Shown piece after piece: positions 7,420 to 45,861 of a stretch of 48,139 nt of DNA. Numbering within the stretch: the first letter of the stretch is position 1; every line of letters starts with the position of its first letter. The stretch comes from Gloeocapsopsis crepidinum LEGE 06123 (GTDB lineage: Bacteria; Cyanobacteriota; Cyanobacteriia; Cyanobacteriales; Chroococcidiopsidaceae): contig NZ_JADEWN010000050.1 of assembly GCF_015207655.1 (NCBI RefSeq), positions 1 to 48,139 on the forward strand, read 5' to 3'. A model generated the notes under the pieces. The model did not search any database. It was not told the DNA's origin and worked only from the letters and a program-made list of their open reading frames with translations. A program made the position numbers and the translations under genes.

Positions 7420-8940
7420 CTACCTATCCTCTTGATTATCAATATCAACTTTATACATATCTTGAGACTCAGCAGCTCTGCGTGTAATATGATTCACACC
7501 GTAAGTCGTTTGAGAAGGCAAAATCTCTAACTGCTGTATTTCCCCCTCGCCTCGCTTCGCTAACGCCCCGCGTCCCGCGCCCCTTCTTCTCACTGAAGTT
7601 CCCTCTTCCGAAGTATCCTCCGCTACCACTTCATACAACACAGCCAACTTGTCTTTATCTGTACCGCGTCGCAACACCCGCCCTAAGCGTTGAATATACT
7701 CCCGCGCCGAACCCGTACCCGAAAGAATAATCGCCACACTCGCTGCGGGAACATCAACACCTTCATTTAAAACGTGCGAAGCGACTAAAGCACGGTACTC
7801 TCCTTCCCGAAATCGCAAAAGAATCTCATGACGTTCCTTAATCGGAGTTTGATGCGTAATCGCCGGAATCAAAAACTCTTGTGAAATGCGATACACCGTT
7901 GCGTTGTCTGCAGTAAAAATTAACGTACGCTCGGGATAATGTTGTGCAAGTAAATTACTTAATACCCGTAACTTACCATCCGTACCTAATGCGATCGCCT
8001 TTGCTGTACGGTGCGCTAACATTGCTTTACGTCCTGCTGTCGAACGCGCACTTGCTTGAACAAATAATTGCCAACCTTTCAAGTTCCCTAACTTGATATT
8101 TGCTTGCTGTAAAAATGCATTGCGTAACTCGATTGATTCGTTGTAGCGATCGCGTTCGTGTTGCGACAGTTTTACTTTAATTTGAACAACTTCGTGTTTT
8201 GCTAAAGCTTTACCGGCGAGTTCTTCCGCAGTTTGGCGATAAACTTCGGTTCCAATTAAGTAATTTAAATCTGAGTGCTTCCCATCGCTGCGTTCTGGGG
8301 TTGCAGTAAGTCCTAATCGATAGGGTGCGATCGCATATTCCGCGATCGCGCGATTAAAATCGGTAGGTAAATGATGACATTCATCAAAAATCAGTAGTGC
8401 ATAACGGTTTCCCAAAGCTTCTGCATGAATTGCAGCACTATCATACGTCGCAACTAACAGAGGAGATTTATCTCGCGAACCTCCACCTAGTAACCCTACT
8501 TCTGCATCTGGAAACGCTGCTAATAGTTGAGCATACCACTGATGCATTAAATCTAAAGTGGGAACTACGATGAGTGTACTACGAGGAGTAGAAGCGATCG
8601 CCAGTTGAGCTAAATACGTTTTTCCAGCAGCGGTAGGTAATACAACTACACCTTGACGCCCTGCTTGTTTCCATGCAGTTAAAGCTTGGGTTTGATGAGG
8701 ATACGGTTCCATTGCCAAACTTGAGACAAGTTCCAACGCAATAAACGCTTTGGCTTCATCAATAAAATTAATGTTCTCGTTTTGTAAGGCTTCTACAAGC
8801 TGACGATAATCAATTGCTTTGATGCGGAATTTTTCTACTCTGTCATCCCAAGTAGCGTAATCTACCCAAGCCTTACCCTTGGGCGGAGGATGCAAAATTA
8901 AAGTACCGCGATCAAAAGATAGTGTAGGAATACGTACCAT
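7420..8940 (-). CDS. XPB-like superfamily 2 DNA helicase
   Basis: ATP-dependent DNA helicase of the XPB/RAD25 type, 506 residues from the ATG at 8940 (a TTG three bases upstream is less likely). Motifs appear in order: Q-T-Q-A-L-T-A-W then LPTAAGKT (Walker A, about 101-108), FDECHH (DEAH box, about 185-190), LGLTATPERSDG (motif III, about 209-220), and Q-R-L-G-R-V-L-R-R-G (motif VI) in the second RecA lobe. It is followed by a DUF790 nuclease, matching the archaeal XPB-Bax1 pairing used in nucleotide excision repair. Near the C-terminus an arginine/glycine-rich stretch is encoded by a GC-rich intergenic-type repeat, apparently inserted in frame after motif VI. Confidence 0.9.
   Translation of the reverse strand: MVRIPTLSFDRGTLILHPPPKGKAWVDYATWDDRVEKFRIKAIDYRQLVEALQNENINFIDEAKAFIALELVSSLAMEPYPHQTQALTAWKQAGRQGVVVLPTAAGKTYLAQLAIASTPRSTLIVVPTLDLMHQWYAQLLAAFPDAEVGLLGGGSRDKSPLLVATYDSAAIHAEALGNRYALLIFDECHHLPTDFNRAIAEYAIAPYRLGLTATPERSDGKHSDLNYLIGTEVYRQTAEELAGKALAKHEVVQIKVKLSQHERDRYNESIELRNAFLQQANIKLGNLKGWQLFVQASARSTAGRKAMLAHRTAKAIALGTDGKLRVLSNLLAQHYPERTLIFTADNATVYRISQEFLIPAITHQTPIKERHEILLRFREGEYRALVASHVLNEGVDVPAASVAIILSGTGSAREYIQRLGRVLRRGTDKDKLAVLYEVVAEDTSEEGTSVRRRGAGRGALAKRGEGEIQQLEILPSQTTYGVNHITRRAAESQDMYKVDIDNQEDR
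7541..7592. repeat. GC-rich dispersed repeat inserted in the helicase reading frame
   Basis: A C-rich block (reading CCCCTCGCCTCGCTTCGC, then CCCCGCGTCCCGCGCC) is compositionally unlike the surrounding gene and resembles the GC-rich short repeats found between genes in many cyanobacteria. On the coding strand it supplies residues R-R-R-G-A-G-R-G-A-L-A-K-R-G-E-G without breaking the frame. Confidence 0.6.
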
Positions 8941-9204: not shown

Positions 9205-10014
9205 ATGTTGCAGAAACAGGAAACGGTTATTGAATTCCGTGATGTCAGTTATAGCCCACAACACCGCGCGATCGTGTCGAATCTCAATTTCTCCATCCGT
9301 CGAGGTGAAGCACTGATTTTGCTAGGACGCAGTGGTAGCGGTAAAACAACGACGATGAAGTTAATTAATCGGTTACTCACGCCTACTCAAGGGGAAGTCC
9401 TATTCGATGGTATTCCAACAAATCAGTGGGATGAAATTAAACTACGCCGCAAAATTGGTTATGTGATTCAAGAAACTGGCTTGTTTCCTCATTTTACTGT
9501 GGAACGCAATGTCGGTTTAATTCCTGCTTTAGAAGGCTGGAAACCTAAACAAATCAAAACGCGGGTGTTTGAACTATTAAACTTAGTCGGTTTAGAACCC
9601 GAACAATTTGCGAAACGCTATCCGCATGAATTATCTGGCGGACAACGACAGCGGATTGGTGTTGCAAGAGCTTTAGCCGCAGATCCTCCAGTATTATTAA
9701 TGGATGAACCTTTCGGTGCATTAGATCCAATTACCCGTTTAGAAATTCAAAGCGAATTTCGCCGCCTACAACAAGAATTAGGTAAAACAGTTGTTTTTGT
9801 AACTCACGATATTCAAGAAGCATTCGTCTTAGCATCCCGTATTGGTTTAATGGATACTGGGCGGTTGGTAGTCTTGGGTACGCCAGAAGATTTTTTAGGT
9901 TCGCAAGAACCTGAAGCACTCGCTTTTAAGCAATGTTTGCGGGGAATCGCATCCTCAGAAGCATCATTTCCACAATTTTCAGATGGAGATAGCAATAACG
10001 GGAAATGGATTTAA
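9205..10014 (+). CDS. OpuC/ProV-type osmoprotectant ABC transporter, ATP-binding protein
   Basis: ATPase subunit of a compatible-solute (glycine betaine, choline or carnitine class) importer, 269 residues. Walker A is GRSGSGKT (about 41-48), the Q-loop is V-I-Q-E-T-G, the signature is LSGGQRQR (about 147-154), Walker B is LLMDEPFGALD, and the switch histidine is in V-T-H-D-I-Q-E-A. Unlike Bacillus OpuCA (about 380 residues) it has no C-terminal CBS domains. Its stop overlaps the permease start by 10 bases, indicating translational coupling. The matching binding protein gene lies 3 kb downstream, beyond an inserted block of opposite-strand genes. Substrate is inferred from family only. Confidence 0.9.
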   Translation: MLQKQETVIEFRDVSYSPQHRAIVSNLNFSIRRGEALILLGRSGSGKTTTMKLINRLLTPTQGEVLFDGIPTNQWDEIKLRRKIGYVIQETGLFPHFTVERNVGLIPALEGWKPKQIKTRVFELLNLVGLEPEQFAKRYPHELSGGQRQRIGVARALAADPPVLLMDEPFGALDPITRLEIQSEFRRLQQELGKTVVFVTHDIQEAFVLASRIGLMDTGRLVVLGTPEDFLGSQEPEALAFKQCLRGIASSEASFPQFSDGDSNNGKWI

Positions 10015-10667
10015 GTGAATTTTTCCTTGTCAGATACGCCCCAGAAATTTTGCAAGAAACTGGTACGCACTTATTCATTGTTGCAATTGCAGTTGGTGTT
10101 GCAACTTTAATTGGTATTCCTTTAGGAATTCTCATCACGCGCCAAGTCCGCTGGCGAAAACCGATTCTTGGCATTGCAAACATCTTGCAAACAATTCCGA
10201 GTTTGGCGCTTTTCGGGTTTTTAATTTCTGTACCCGTTATTGGTGGGATTGGAGCGCAAACGGCAATTATTGCTTTAACTTTATACTCTTTTCTGCCAAT
10301 TATCCGCAATACTTACACGGGAATTACGAGTGTCGATCCGGCAATCCGAGAAGCTGGACGTGGTATGGGTATGACTGATCGCCAACTGCTCTTACAAGTA
10401 GAAATTCCCTTAGCATTAAGCTTTATTTTAGCAGGAGTGCGAGTCGCTACCGTGATTGCGATCGGTATTGCAACAATCGCCGCTGCGATCGGTGCTGGCG
10501 GTTTAGGTGTCTTTGTCTTTCGCGGTATTGCTATGGTAAACAATCAACTTATTCTCGCAGGCGCAATTCCCGCAGCAATATTAGCAATTTTAGCCGACTG
10601 GGGTATTAGTCTATTAGAGCGACGCTTGCTAAAAAAAGGTTCGCAAGCAACGACTAAGGGGTTTTAA
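10005..10667 (+). CDS. OpuC/ProW-type osmoprotectant ABC transporter, permease
   Basis: Inner-membrane subunit of the same importer, 220 residues with about five or six transmembrane segments. The family hallmarks are visible: L-Q-T-I-P-S-L-A-L-F-G-F near residues 64-75, I-I-R-N-T-Y-T-G-I near 99-107, and the EAA-type coupling loop G-x-x-x-x-x-x-x-L (R-E-A-G-R-G-M-G-M-T-D) near 115-125. It begins inside the ATPase gene. Transcription probably once continued into the binding-protein gene at 13679, as these three genes are normally one operon. Confidence 0.93.
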   Translation: MDLSEFFLVRYAPEILQETGTHLFIVAIAVGVATLIGIPLGILITRQVRWRKPILGIANILQTIPSLALFGFLISVPVIGGIGAQTAIIALTLYSFLPIIRNTYTGITSVDPAIREAGRGMGMTDRQLLLQVEIPLALSFILAGVRVATVIAIGIATIAAAIGAGGLGVFVFRGIAMVNNQLILAGAIPAAILAILADWGISLLERRLLKKGSQATTKGF

Positions 10668-10757
10668 ATGAGCGCAAGCTCACTAAATCTTACCATGTTT
10701 TTCCACACTACCTACCCCTTCGAAAAGCCAACAAGTATGGCGAGTTAGCTGTATTCA

Positions 10758-11255
10758 CTAAAATATAAGTAAATTCAACTGTTCACCCAACCGATTCTCT
10801 TGCATTAGTTCATTTCTTCCCTTGTTAAGTGCATCAAGCCACTCAGCCTGAACATACCAATTCTTACGCCAGTTGATTGTAGCTTGTGGCGGTACAAAAC
10901 CAGAACAAAGTTTTTGTATTTGTTTTAGAGGCAATGCAGGAAAGGAAAAGCTCTGACGTATTAAAGTGCCATATGCAAATTCACAGTTCTCGAAATAAAT
11001 GTCATAGAATTCTTTGTCTACTCCCATAATATGATGATACTGATTCCACATCCTAGGAGGAGATAAGGATATAGTTTTATCAGCTATAAAGCCTCCTCTT
11101 ATAACAGAATCAGGATTAGTTTCATATAGAAGAATAAGATCGCCTAGTTCGATACCAATTGGGCGCTTTCTTAACTCAATTTTCTTAGTACCAGCAATAA
11201 TACGTTCAGCATAGATCTGCTTGATGCTGAGAGCCTTAATATGCTTAACCTGCAT
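10758..11255 (-). CDS. Small ASCH-domain protein
   Basis: Cytoplasmic protein of 165 residues with an ASCH domain at the N-terminus: A-L-S-I-K-Q-I-Y-A, then I-I-A-G-T-K-K-I-E-L-R-K-R, the GxKxxExR signature of the fold. ASCH proteins bind nucleic acid or nucleosides, and E. coli YqfB, of this fold, hydrolyses N4-acetylcytidine using an equivalent lysine. The start is the ATG at 11255 because GGAGG lies 5 bases upstream; a TTG at 11273 overlaps the preceding stop and is less likely. The gene follows the GNAT/ASCH gene by 14 bases and is surely co-transcribed. Biochemical role here is not known. Confidence 0.8.
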   Translation of the reverse strand: MQVKHIKALSIKQIYAERIIAGTKKIELRKRPIGIELGDLILLYETNPDSVIRGGFIADKTISLSPPRMWNQYHHIMGVDKEFYDIYFENCEFAYGTLIRQSFSFPALPLKQIQKLCSGFVPPQATINWRKNWYVQAEWLDALNKGRNELMQENRLGEQLNLLIF

Positions 11256-11269
11256 AAACACCTCCAAGT

Positions 11270-11920
11270 TCAACTGCTCTTCATATAACGCTCTAAGGAA
11301 ATACTATGCATGGTTTGAGGTGTTCCATTTAGGATACCATTACTTAATAAGTCACTTCGACTGATCGCTTGACGAAGTGGCATTAGGAAATCGTACTCAA
11401 CAGCTTGTCGAATTTGTCCTTCCCCGCCGATTTGTTCTAGAGTAAGAACACCTCTTATACCCAAATCATTGTAGAGTTGAGCAGGTGTTCCAATATATCG
11501 ATTGACGATTCTAGCAATCGCTACAACACCAGATATAGGACGGCTAGCATAAAACAATACCGATGCCCCTCTCATATCATCTTGAGTACAAGTGGGTTTA
11601 CCGTAATAAACCGTTTTGCCAGCTTGAAATATTTGAATTAGAAACTGAGGACGAATTGGTATAATATAAGCCGTCCGAGGATCATAGATCGACTCTGCGG
11701 GATATATCAGATTGAGCCAGGAATGGAAAGAACAACGATGAACCGAATTTCCATCAGAGTCCAGTAAATTAATAGTTGCATCGTTGTATTGAATCTGTGT
11801 GACTTCCTTTCTACCTTCAGGATTATAAGAAGACCCAATAATTGATGGAAATAGATGTTTTGCCTTATTTATAACATCCAGTTTACTCGTATCAGGGTCA
11901 TAAAATAGTAGCTTTGTCAA
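11270..11920 (-). CDS. C-terminal half of a GIY-YIG/GNAT/ASCH protein, separated by an amber codon
   Basis: A 216-residue frame from a TTG with no Shine-Dalgarno. It is in the same frame as the upstream GIY-YIG/GNAT gene, and the ten codons between them are open, interrupted only by TAG at 11951-11953. The first residues after the amber (E-R-E-G-H-Q-P-E-W-F-L-T-K-L) look like the final strand of the GNAT fold, so the two pieces were one gene. The middle (about 90-165: I-I-P-I-R-P-Q-F, then F-Q-A-G-K-T-V-Y-Y-G, then G-V-V-A-I-A-R-I-V) resembles a degenerate ASCH/PUA-like domain. Either this is the 3' half of a recent pseudogene or it is made by read-through. Confidence 0.7.
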   Translation of the reverse strand: MTKLLFYDPDTSKLDVINKAKHLFPSIIGSSYNPEGRKEVTQIQYNDATINLLDSDGNSVHRCSFHSWLNLIYPAESIYDPRTAYIIPIRPQFLIQIFQAGKTVYYGKPTCTQDDMRGASVLFYASRPISGVVAIARIVNRYIGTPAQLYNDLGIRGVLTLEQIGGEGQIRQAVEYDFLMPLRQAISRSDLLSNGILNGTPQTMHSISLERYMKSS

Positions 11921-11950
11921 GAACCATTCCGGTTGATGACCTTCACGTTC

Positions 11951-12763
11951 CTATATCTCACGCCCTATACCTTCTACCCAAAAGCCGTAGCGTTCAAAGA
12001 ATGGAATAAGCTCAACTCTAGCTGTTGTAACAAAAGTTCTTCTAATTCTCTCTGATTTCCACTGTTCAAAGCAGGTTAAAATCAGGTTTCTCCCAATACC
12101 ACTACGTCGAAAATCCTGATAAACATAGAGAGTTGATAATTTAGCGATTCCACGACTTTTAGGTTTCCAAATTGCAACTCCAATAGCTTGTTTATCTCTG
12201 TAAGCCACATTGAACACAGTTTTTGAATCCCTCATTGTTCTATCTAGCCATTGAGGGAAACCAGGATAGAGGGGAGATAGTTCATTATCAAGCATCCTGA
12301 CCAACTCAATCTCACGTCTAAATTCGCTACCGCTTAACTTTCTCACTCCAAATGCATCAACAACAGACTCGAACGAGTCTCCCTCAATATCTGTTCGTCC
12401 ACCGACTAGTTCTGAGAAATCATCAAAAATTACAGCACGATAAAGTTTATTTACAAAATCTTGTAATTCTTGTTGATTAGGGAACCTAAACCACTCAATA
12501 CCAGGTGCTTCTGAGACATGATATCCCTTTGCTGTCAACTGAGAATGAATAATTGACTCTACACGCTCGTCTGAAATTTTAATTGCGCCCAATAAATGAG
12601 GTTCTTCTGGATGCGAGGTTCTAATCTGTGCGCGTATGCGCTGCCATGCTAATTGCATAGGATCAGCATCAATACTTCCAGAGGTTCTACCAATTTTTAC
12701 CCTTGGTTGCTCTCTTAGATATGAAGGAAATGAATATATGTAAAGAACAACCTGGGTTTCCAT
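11951..12763 (-). CDS. GIY-YIG (T5orf172-like) plus GNAT acetyltransferase fusion, ended by an in-frame amber codon
   Basis: Two domains in 270 residues. Residues about 5-95 look like the T5orf172/MUG113 branch of GIY-YIG nucleases: L-Y-I-Y-S-F (7-12), V-K-I-G-R-T (22-27), a helix with R-I-R, an E-S-I-I-H segment near 69-73 and E-W-F at 90-92. Residues about 145-270 are a GNAT acetyltransferase with acetyl-CoA loop R-R-S-G-I-G-R-N-L-I (209-218) and the closing F-F-E-R-Y-G-F. The TAG at 11951-11953 falls before the last GNAT strand, and reading continues in frame for 226 codons. The substrate is unknown. The domain mix (nuclease-like, acetyltransferase, ASCH) suggests action on nucleic acid or nucleosides. 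Confidence 0.78.
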   Translation of the reverse strand: METQVVLYIYSFPSYLREQPRVKIGRTSGSIDADPMQLAWQRIRAQIRTSHPEEPHLLGAIKISDERVESIIHSQLTAKGYHVSEAPGIEWFRFPNQQELQDFVNKLYRAVIFDDFSELVGGRTDIEGDSFESVVDAFGVRKLSGSEFRREIELVRMLDNELSPLYPGFPQWLDRTMRDSKTVFNVAYRDKQAIGVAIWKPKSRGIAKLSTLYVYQDFRRSGIGRNLILTCFEQWKSERIRRTFVTTARVELIPFFERYGFWVEGIGREI

Positions 12764-12898
12764 AAATTATTCAACTAATTACAAGCTACCTCAGCCTACT
12801 AGGTAGGAATAAGCAAAGGGTTTAGTGGGGTTATTATAACTAACTAAGAAGCTTTAGATGTAGTCGCCAGCATCTAAGGTCATCTTACAAGATGAGTA

Positions 12899-13597
12899 TC
12901 ACTCCTCTTCAATCTCAACTCCCAATTCACGCAACTTTTGCTGTAATGCTTCTACTTTGGCTTCCGCCGCATTAGCTCTTTGACGTTCGATTTCAGTTCG
13001 TTGACGTTCTTCTGCTTCTGCTTCCTCTGGAGTCGGAACTAATTTTCCATCTGGCGTAAAAAACCGCAATTGTTCGCCCACAATTCCCAAATACAATTGT
13101 AATTCGTCACTCCATAGCCATCCTTGCTCATTAGGGATGAGTGCTTCATAGATGCGGTAATTAAGTTTAAAACCCGCAAATTCTAAGGTATAAGGGTCAA
13201 ACCAGAAGTAATTTGGCGTGCGAAACACATCCTGATACAATTGCTTTTTTAAACCTCGATCATTTTTAGCAGTAGACTCAGAAAGAATCTCTAAAATAAA
13301 GTTAGGATACTTCCCTTCTTCTTCCCAAACTGTCCAGCTTTTTCGCTCTTTGCGTTCAGTATTTAAAACAACAAAAAAATCTGGTCCTTTAATATCTTCA
13401 GATTTTATCTGACGGATACTGTAGTAAATGCTTAAGTTACCTCCAGCAAAAAAATCTTGCCGATGCCATAAGCGTTCTAAAGAAGTTAAGAGTAAGATGA
13501 GTTGTCTAAGATGGCGATAGGTTTCTAACGGCGGTTCATTACTTAGTAAGTCAGTAGGAGGATATGTTGGAGAATGTGTTTGACTGCTTTGTACCAT
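12899..13597 (-). CDS. Uma2-family (DUF820) PD-(D/E)XK endonuclease-like protein
   Basis: One of the large Uma2 families of cyanobacteria; the biological role is unknown and the nuclease activity is predicted by fold. The 232 residues from the ATG at 13597 contain the expected core: G-P-D-F-F-V-V-L, then N-F-I-L-E-I-L-S-E-S-T, then a lysine-bearing helix (G-L-K-K-Q-L-Y-Q), then Y-F-W-F-D-P. The last 45 residues are charged heptads (E-A-E-A-E-E-R-Q-R, then L-Q-Q-K-L-R-E-L) that should form a coiled coil, common in this family. A TTG at 13624 in frame is a less likely start. It lies in the opposite-strand block that divides the osmoprotectant transporter genes. Confidence 0.85.
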   Translation of the reverse strand: MVQSSQTHSPTYPPTDLLSNEPPLETYRHLRQLILLLTSLERLWHRQDFFAGGNLSIYYSIRQIKSEDIKGPDFFVVLNTERKERKSWTVWEEEGKYPNFILEILSESTAKNDRGLKKQLYQDVFRTPNYFWFDPYTLEFAGFKLNYRIYEALIPNEQGWLWSDELQLYLGIVGEQLRFFTPDGKLVPTPEEAEAEERQRTEIERQRANAAEAKVEALQQKLRELGVEIEEE

Positions 13598-13678
13598 ATT
13601 ACTTAAGCTGAATTTCGCGGGCAAGGCGAATCAAGTTTATTTCTAGTTTAATTCATGAAATTTTTCCTATTAGTAGGC

Positions 13679-44940: not shown

Positions 44941-45861
44941 TTACTTTAAAGCAACTTTGACAGAAGGGTTGTTAACAACACCTGTCGTTGCTTCTGTGAC
45001 AGGAGTATTTTCTGTACTGGGTTGTGCCATCCACCATAGAAAAATAACTGGAATGACACCCAAGATTAAACCTATAGCTACTGGAATCCAAAATCCAGAA
45101 GCTAAGCTAATAGCAGCAGCAAACGCAACGTTACTTAAATAAACAATCAATGGCACAACTAGCTGCGAGCGGTTTAAGTTTAATGGGGGATTTTTCCATA
45201 ACAATGCAGCCACACTCATAAATAAGGCACTCGTGCCATACCAGCCCAAATAATTACGATAGGGTGTACCAAAGAAAGCTCCTGGTTCTGCCCAATACCA
45301 AAAAGGAAAAGTTGTTTGACTCATTGCTGGTTCCAGTGCAAAATCCCAAGCTGTAAACAGCATTGCACCTAGCAGCACAGCACCCAATTGGCGCAACCAA
45401 CTAGACTTAGCAGTATTCAAAGCAACATTAGCAATTAAATAGGAAGAAAAACCCATATAGAACCAAGACAAAGGGATAGTAAAAGGCACTAGCCCTGCAA
45501 TCTTGTAACCCAATCCACTAAGGTAGCTGTAATCTCCAAACGGAAACCCAGTACCTGTTCCTAATAATTCACTCGCCAAAGATATAAAAATGGCTGGCAG
45601 CATAAATGCTAATGTTAGTCGTACTCCAACCGTGCGGTAGGCAAAAATTGAGACAGCGACTAATCCTAACAGGATGTCAGTTACACCACCTCCAGCCATA
45701 GACTTTTCTACACTCCACTGAAATAAAGTGCTTCCCTCTGGCAGTAAATGTAAGATGGCGTCAGCATGCGGTACGACTAGGATCAACCCTGCAAGTCCAA
45801 AAGTCTTTGCCAAAATATGACCAATCAAGCAGTAGCGTTCAGCAATAACAAGTTGCTTCAT
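44941..45861 (-). CDS. cruF: Gamma-carotene 1'-hydroxylase CruF
   Basis: An integral membrane enzyme of 306 residues (DUF422/CruF family), with about seven or eight hydrophobic segments. It hydrates the psi-end of gamma-carotene, on the path to myxol. Family motifs are E-L-L-G-T-G-T-G-F-P-F-G-D-Y near 98-111, P-L-S-W-F-Y-M-G near 131-138, A-W-D-F-A-L-E-P near 171-178 and N-Y-L-G-W-Y-G near 204-210. The ATG at 45861 has AAGGAA six bases upstream. With cruG it forms a two-gene myxoxanthophyll operon. Confidence 0.92.
   Translation of the reverse strand: MKQLVIAERYCLIGHILAKTFGLAGLILVVPHADAILHLLPEGSTLFQWSVEKSMAGGGVTDILLGLVAVSIFAYRTVGVRLTLAFMLPAIFISLASELLGTGTGFPFGDYSYLSGLGYKIAGLVPFTIPLSWFYMGFSSYLIANVALNTAKSSWLRQLGAVLLGAMLFTAWDFALEPAMSQTTFPFWYWAEPGAFFGTPYRNYLGWYGTSALFMSVAALLWKNPPLNLNRSQLVVPLIVYLSNVAFAAAISLASGFWIPVAIGLILGVIPVIFLWWMAQPSTENTPVTEATTGVVNNPSVKVALK

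Follow-up and report, generated by a model that had tools for sequence, protein, structure and literature searches.

A GIY-YIG–GNAT–ASCH-like gene of Gloeocapsopsis crepidinum LEGE 06123, very probably acquired horizontally and recently inactivated by an amber codon and an extra base

RESULTS

A long gene is interrupted by a single amber codon and carries a second lesion at its 3' end

The window (the whole stretch of 48,139 nucleotides from Gloeocapsopsis crepidinum LEGE 06123 that we analysed) carries on its minus strand a long gene interrupted by a TAG codon and, as the next ORF, an intact gene for an ASCH protein (Table 1). The initial annotation had described two minus-strand frames in one phase, separated by this TAG only, and a 497-codon protein if the TAG were absent. 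Indeed, the minus strand from 12763 to 11270 translates as 497 codons in one frame, with the TAG as its sole internal stop. The upstream ORF begins with ATG and encodes 270 amino acids, and the downstream ORF (11270-11920) begins with TTG (11918-11920) and encodes 216 amino acids; the frame stays open for 226 codons after the TAG. The downstream TTG had been described as lacking a ribosome site, and we likewise saw no Shine-Dalgarno-like run ahead of it when the sequence was read by eye. The near intact relatives of this gene encode a product of 505 amino acids.

The extra base at 11283, like the ASCH gene, was overlooked in the initial annotation. It replaces a conserved C-terminus, which reads GGIYAG or GGFYAG in near relatives. 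Thus, the gene bears two disabling lesions relative to intact orthologues, which is the mark of a pseudogene.

We scanned the whole window from stop to stop for open stretches in the same frame, each of at least 100 codons, that meet at one stop, and found two such junctions, at 11951 and 44941. The split at 11951 is not due to chance, since homologues span the stop, and it is the sole within-gene split in the window by this test. The junction at 44941 was ruled out as a split gene: a gene for a carotenoid synthesis protein (Caroten_synth) and a glycosyltransferase gene, which are unrelated and ordinary neighbours, meet there in the same frame at a TAA (44941-44943). TAG terminates 14 of the 35 ORFs of at least 150 codons in the window (uncurated ORFs).

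Table 1. Positions of the features of the locus in the window
Feature	Position	Strand	Basis or remark
Broken GIY-YIG-GNAT-ASCH-like gene	11270..12763	-	5' piece 11951-12763, 3' piece 11270-11950; homologues run across the stop uninterrupted
In-frame amber TAG, codon 271	11951..11953	-	Tyr in 12/12 relatives that cover the position
Extra base relative to 8/8 aligned relatives	11283..11283	-	Puts about the last dozen codons out of frame; frame then ends at TGA 11270-11272
Predicted GIY-YIG (T5orf172) nuclease domain, residues 7-105	12449..12745	-	Pfam PF10544, E 1.4e-5, 26 bits, cut-off 20
GNAT acetyltransferase domain, Pfam residues about 171-262	11978..12253	-	PF13508/PF13673/PF00583, E 4e-10 to 9e-10
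Divergent ASCH/PUA-like C-terminal domain, residues about 365-493, 3' of the TAG	11285..11671	-	Profile, low-confidence model, PADLOC (PDC-M11A and PDC-M11B)
Intact partner ASCH (DUF3850-like) gene, 165 amino acids, ATG at 11255	10758..11255	-	Pfam DUF3850, 23.4 bits, cut-off 22.9
GGAGG, likely ribosome-binding site of the ASCH gene	11261..11265	-	Read from the sequence
AAA_17 gene remnant, first few codons	10697..10706	-	Relatives have AAA_17 after ASCH; the remainder is gone here
Probable acquired cassette (broken gene and ASCH gene)	10669..12898, ends approximate	.	Flanks adjoin without the cassette in G001, G004 and G010
Transporter permease gene, cassette flank	10005-10667	+	
Uma2 gene, cassette flank	12899-13624	-	

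Relatives have tyrosine at the amber position and are frequently broken in other ways

Relatives were collected from 60 genomes (that of G. crepidinum included), 386 genomes of the phylum, 388 genomes of the order and one pattern-based scan of contigs (9 loci), which are overlapping sets and a non-exhaustive sample. These contained 14 distinct loci of the GIY-YIG type, counting the window and counting as single loci both L066 and G192 (100% identity) and the trio L074, L087 and G461. No second copy of the gene was found in the genome of G. crepidinum itself.

The check suggested by the initial annotation, a search for uninterrupted homologues and for the residue opposite the TAG, gave the result that a nonsense mutation predicts. 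Intact copies of 504-505 amino acids are present in 8 of the 14 loci (L066-L071, G049 and L074). The relatives with tyrosine at codon 271 are L066-L073, G007, G049, L074 and the variant G145/L062, and the codon is TAT or TAC in all eight relatives that were aligned as DNA. A conserved TAG was also sought, and none of the 12 relatives covering the position has one, even at 93% protein identity.

In the remaining six loci the copy is broken or reduced to a remnant, in a different way each time. Besides the window, these are G007, in which the GIY-YIG and GNAT parts are separated by an insertion of 1.3 kb that carries an OrfB_IS605/TnpB gene (394 amino acids; L019 9111-10443), so that 371 amino acids of GNAT-ASCH-like sequence remain as an open frame of their own; L072, with a one-base deletion at codon 417; L073, with a TGA at codon 231; G074 (L085 2818-4226), in which the large gene is reduced to its last 75 codons while ASCH and AAA_17 both have open frames; and G286, in which the first 42 codons are left. 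Since the lesions of this gene differ from one relative's assembly to another, decay appears to be common in the gene family.

To measure constraint, we used a home-made codon model with nine sequences, codons 1-493 and lesion codons masked. Omega on the window branch was 0.121, compared to 0.134 elsewhere on the tree, and omega = 1 was rejected (2dlnL 25.7); this held both before the TAG (omega 0.091, 2dlnL 14.7) and after it (omega 0.148, 2dlnL 11.6). No relaxation of constraint after the lesion was found on the window branch, as is expected if the lesions are recent. In this model the low omega speaks against long-standing decay, and read-through would give the same value. L073, whose own stop at codon 231 precedes every codon after 271, has an omega of 0.030 over that stretch, and therefore lesions in this gene family can be too recent to leave a trace in omega. 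The corresponding value for L072 (0.056) is a weaker comparison, because most of its stretch after codon 271 precedes the lesion at codon 417. For the ASCH gene, omega on the window branch was not significantly raised (0.441 versus 0.124, 2dlnL 3.3).

The large protein combines a predicted nuclease, an acetyltransferase and a divergent ASCH domain

The three domains proposed in the initial annotation, a T5orf172-type GIY-YIG domain, an acetyltransferase and a degenerate ASCH domain, were all recovered, by different kinds of evidence. The GIY-YIG assignment holds as a Pfam-only prediction, because no solved GIY-YIG structure was among the matches listed for a profile of relatives or by Foldseek. 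The 50 Foldseek matches listed for the full-length structure model, which is itself poor (pLDDT 61.5), are GNATs and ZmASCH, and none is a GIY-YIG protein by its description. The acetyltransferase was identified by the Pfam GNAT families. NCBIfam GNAT scores were far under their cut-offs, and the 3' piece had no NCBIfam match. When the profile of relatives was compared to solved GNATs, some matches extended to residues 272-286, which places the TAG either at the end of the GNAT fold or just within it; the initial annotation had put the last GNAT strand after the TAG.

The 3' piece has no Pfam match, and the Pfam EVE family was unmatched for the window protein and its relatives alike. A profile built from seven intact relatives and compared to solved structures matched ZmASCH (5GUS/5GUQ, E 1.7e-5, residues 365-499), and when the C-terminal domain was modelled, at low confidence (pLDDT 55), ZmASCH was the top structural match, with THYN1, an EVE protein (PMC7641849), further down. 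ZmASCH is a single-strand RNase of Zymomonas mobilis (PMC5615036, which also names the GxKxxxxR motif). By eye, this motif is kept in the partner ASCH protein (GTKKIELR) and absent from the C-terminal domain, which is thus a divergent ASCH domain to judge from its sequence. The profile of the partner also matched ZmASCH (E 4e-10). The C-terminal domain and the partner did not match each other significantly in hhalign, though ZmASCH matches both.

The ASCH gene is retained in an operon, which probably arrived recently at this site

The large gene and the ASCH gene form an operon. In relatives (L066-L072 and G074), the order is the large gene or its remnant, ASCH and then AAA_17. The ASCH gene is present in 13 of the 14 loci and open in all nine that were aligned. 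Of the 14 loci, 9 have AAA_17 within the stretches fetched; in the window only its first codons are left. In L073, the locus with a stop at codon 231, a gene for an HNH_5 endonuclease lies between ASCH and AAA_17 (8064-8855). Five broken loci keep ASCH, and their six lesions are all in the large gene; given the lengths of the two genes, this bias is not significant (0.753^6, or ∼0.18, by our own arithmetic).

The permease and Uma2 genes that flank the cassette adjoin each other in another genome of the same genus (G001, with flanks 92-95% identical) and in two genomes of the same family (G004 and G010). This absence of the cassette from the site in one congener and two members of the family indicates that it was probably acquired recently. 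Its nearest copies, at 86-92% DNA identity, are in Nodosilinea, Leptolyngbyaceae, Cyanobacteria bacterium RU_5_0 and Stenomitos, a distribution that is consistent with horizontal transfer. The ends of the cassette showed no conspicuous terminal repeats. In a further genome of the genus (G002), a different insert of 3.8 kb lies between permease and Uma2 (L101 3077-6906); as the window and G002 hold unrelated inserts there, this interval is possibly an insertion hotspot.

The cassette resembles candidate defence modules described with a different nuclease

In its passages on GNAT-EVE proteins, PMC7641849 (2020) treats these proteins, which often have an N-terminal PIN domain, as parts of putative toxin-antitoxin or defence modules that also include an ASCH gene and in many cases AAA_17. 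According to these passages, PIN is frequent and not in every member, AAA_17 is frequent and not obligatory, and none of the GNAT-EVE modules had been experimentally characterised at that time; the first description of the PIN-GNAT-EVE group is credited to Iyer et al. The cassette in the window resembles this group in its N-terminal nuclease domain, its central GNAT, the downstream ASCH gene, which in relatives is often accompanied by AAA_17, and a C-terminal domain with a PUA/ASCH-superfamily fold, for which the model is of low confidence. It differs in that a GIY-YIG (T5orf172) domain replaces PIN, in that the C-terminal domain is nearest to ZmASCH with EVE proteins next, and in that the window copy is broken and its AAA_17 gone. 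GIY-YIG is listed in the same passages as a fusion partner of EVE, not together with GNAT, and a GIY-YIG-GNAT combination is not reported in the titles, abstract openings and passages of the literature searched.

Similarly, PADLOC matched the large protein to PDC-M11A (E 2.4e-16 for the intact copy L059, and 8.6e-9 and 8.1e-8 for the two halves in the window) and the partner in the window to PDC-M11B (E 9.2e-21). The best-scoring stretch of the large protein begins at the GNAT part and leaves the GIY-YIG part outside, and the defence role of this family is putative; no paper naming PDC-M11 was found in the literature searched. Two other ASCH proteins are further points of comparison. ZmASCH is a stand-alone protein, unlike the C-terminal domain. 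YqfB, an ac4C amidohydrolase with Thr24 as its nucleophile in the account of PMC6972931, shares the ASCH superfamily with the partner, which differs in having Glu at the place of Thr24 (K-x-x-E-x-R, by eye and unaligned), and we predict no such activity for it.

The locus is best explained as a decaying remnant

We conclude that the locus is very probably a horizontally acquired two-gene remnant of a candidate defence or toxin-antitoxin cassette of the PIN-GNAT-EVE/ASCH type, in a version with GIY-YIG, and that in it the large gene has very probably become a pseudogene only recently, through an amber codon at a conserved tyrosine, where the GNAT domain ends, and through the extra base. The initial annotation had left the choice between a recent nonsense mutation and deliberate read-through, and of these the former is favoured by the conserved tyrosine and by the intact copies. 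Programmed read-through, in which the TAG would be a controlled switch that allows a low level of full-length protein, could account for the open and constrained frame after the TAG. We nevertheless consider it extremely improbable, given that the TAG is shared with none of the 12 relatives covering the position and that the decoding machinery gives no sign of it: release factor RF1 is present (522 bits, cut-off 423), PylS reaches only 24.7 bits (cut-off 178), no tRNA with a CTA anticodon is among 38 tRNAs read, an incomplete list (150 of 361 first-look candidates scored) that is without tRNA-Ile and Leu-UAA, and the window has no Rfam match at gathering scores. Moreover, the extra base would still change the conserved C-terminus of a read-through product, and two lesions in the same gene are hard to reconcile with this explanation.

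Sequencing or assembly errors, with an intact gene behind the TAG, the extra base or both, would fit the low omega on the window branch, and the assembly is a draft of 150 contigs, of which the window is one. This explanation is nonetheless very unlikely: it needs two independent errors in one gene, in a family in which the other assemblies carry lesions of their own, and AAA_17 is missing here too. The least probable explanation is that the gene has undergone a functional fission into two proteins, the second made by re-initiation at the TTG. The 3' piece does retain most of the ASCH-like domain, and the IS-split copy in G007 also keeps its separate GNAT-ASCH-like frame; against this, the TTG has no visible ribosome site, the break coincides with the end of the GNAT fold or lies just within it, the 3' piece has a frameshifted end, and this split occurs in no relative found.

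If the large gene is a pseudogene, translation would stop after codon 270 and would release a product with the GIY-YIG domain and a nearly complete GNAT domain, without the C-terminal domain that may read nucleic acid. The large gene would thereby have lost its function, while the ASCH gene appears to retain its own ribosome site and its frame. In the intact relatives, by analogy, the ASCH/EVE-like domain might place the GIY-YIG nuclease and the acetyltransferase on modified nucleic acid or tRNA, and the ASCH partner might regulate or counteract the large protein, as would follow from the published proposal for PIN-GNAT-EVE modules.

A suspected recoding event is thus most likely a case of ordinary decay. 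Its wider interest lies in the GIY-YIG variant, a modest novelty that adds a version armed with GIY-YIG to the candidate defence genes of the PIN-GNAT-EVE/ASCH group, and in how often the gene has been broken independently (6 of 14 loci). Tentatively, and with rather less than even confidence, we suggest that GIY-YIG-GNAT-ASCH, ASCH and AAA_17 together may be a mobile cyanobacterial defence or toxin-antitoxin cassette, with an exchangeable nuclease (PIN in the published cases) and a costly effector that is repeatedly switched off while ASCH is kept. The intact and naturally broken cyanobacterial copies are a ready set with which to test the toxicity or protection conferred by the large protein and the control role of ASCH.

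A variant locus and collections of mobile elements

The variant G145 (L065/L062) has an N-terminus that appears PIN-like by eye, with neither a T5orf172 nor a Pfam PIN match. Its ASCH gene is convergent, on the opposite strand, and AAA_17 was unmatched within the stretch fetched. Phage and plasmid collections had no match at E 1e-5 to the one query used, the distant intact copy L003, which is 45% identical to the 5' half in the window. In the viral_contigs collection, 42 stretches fit the pattern, and one of these is a relative, with a weak match in the GIY-YIG part only.
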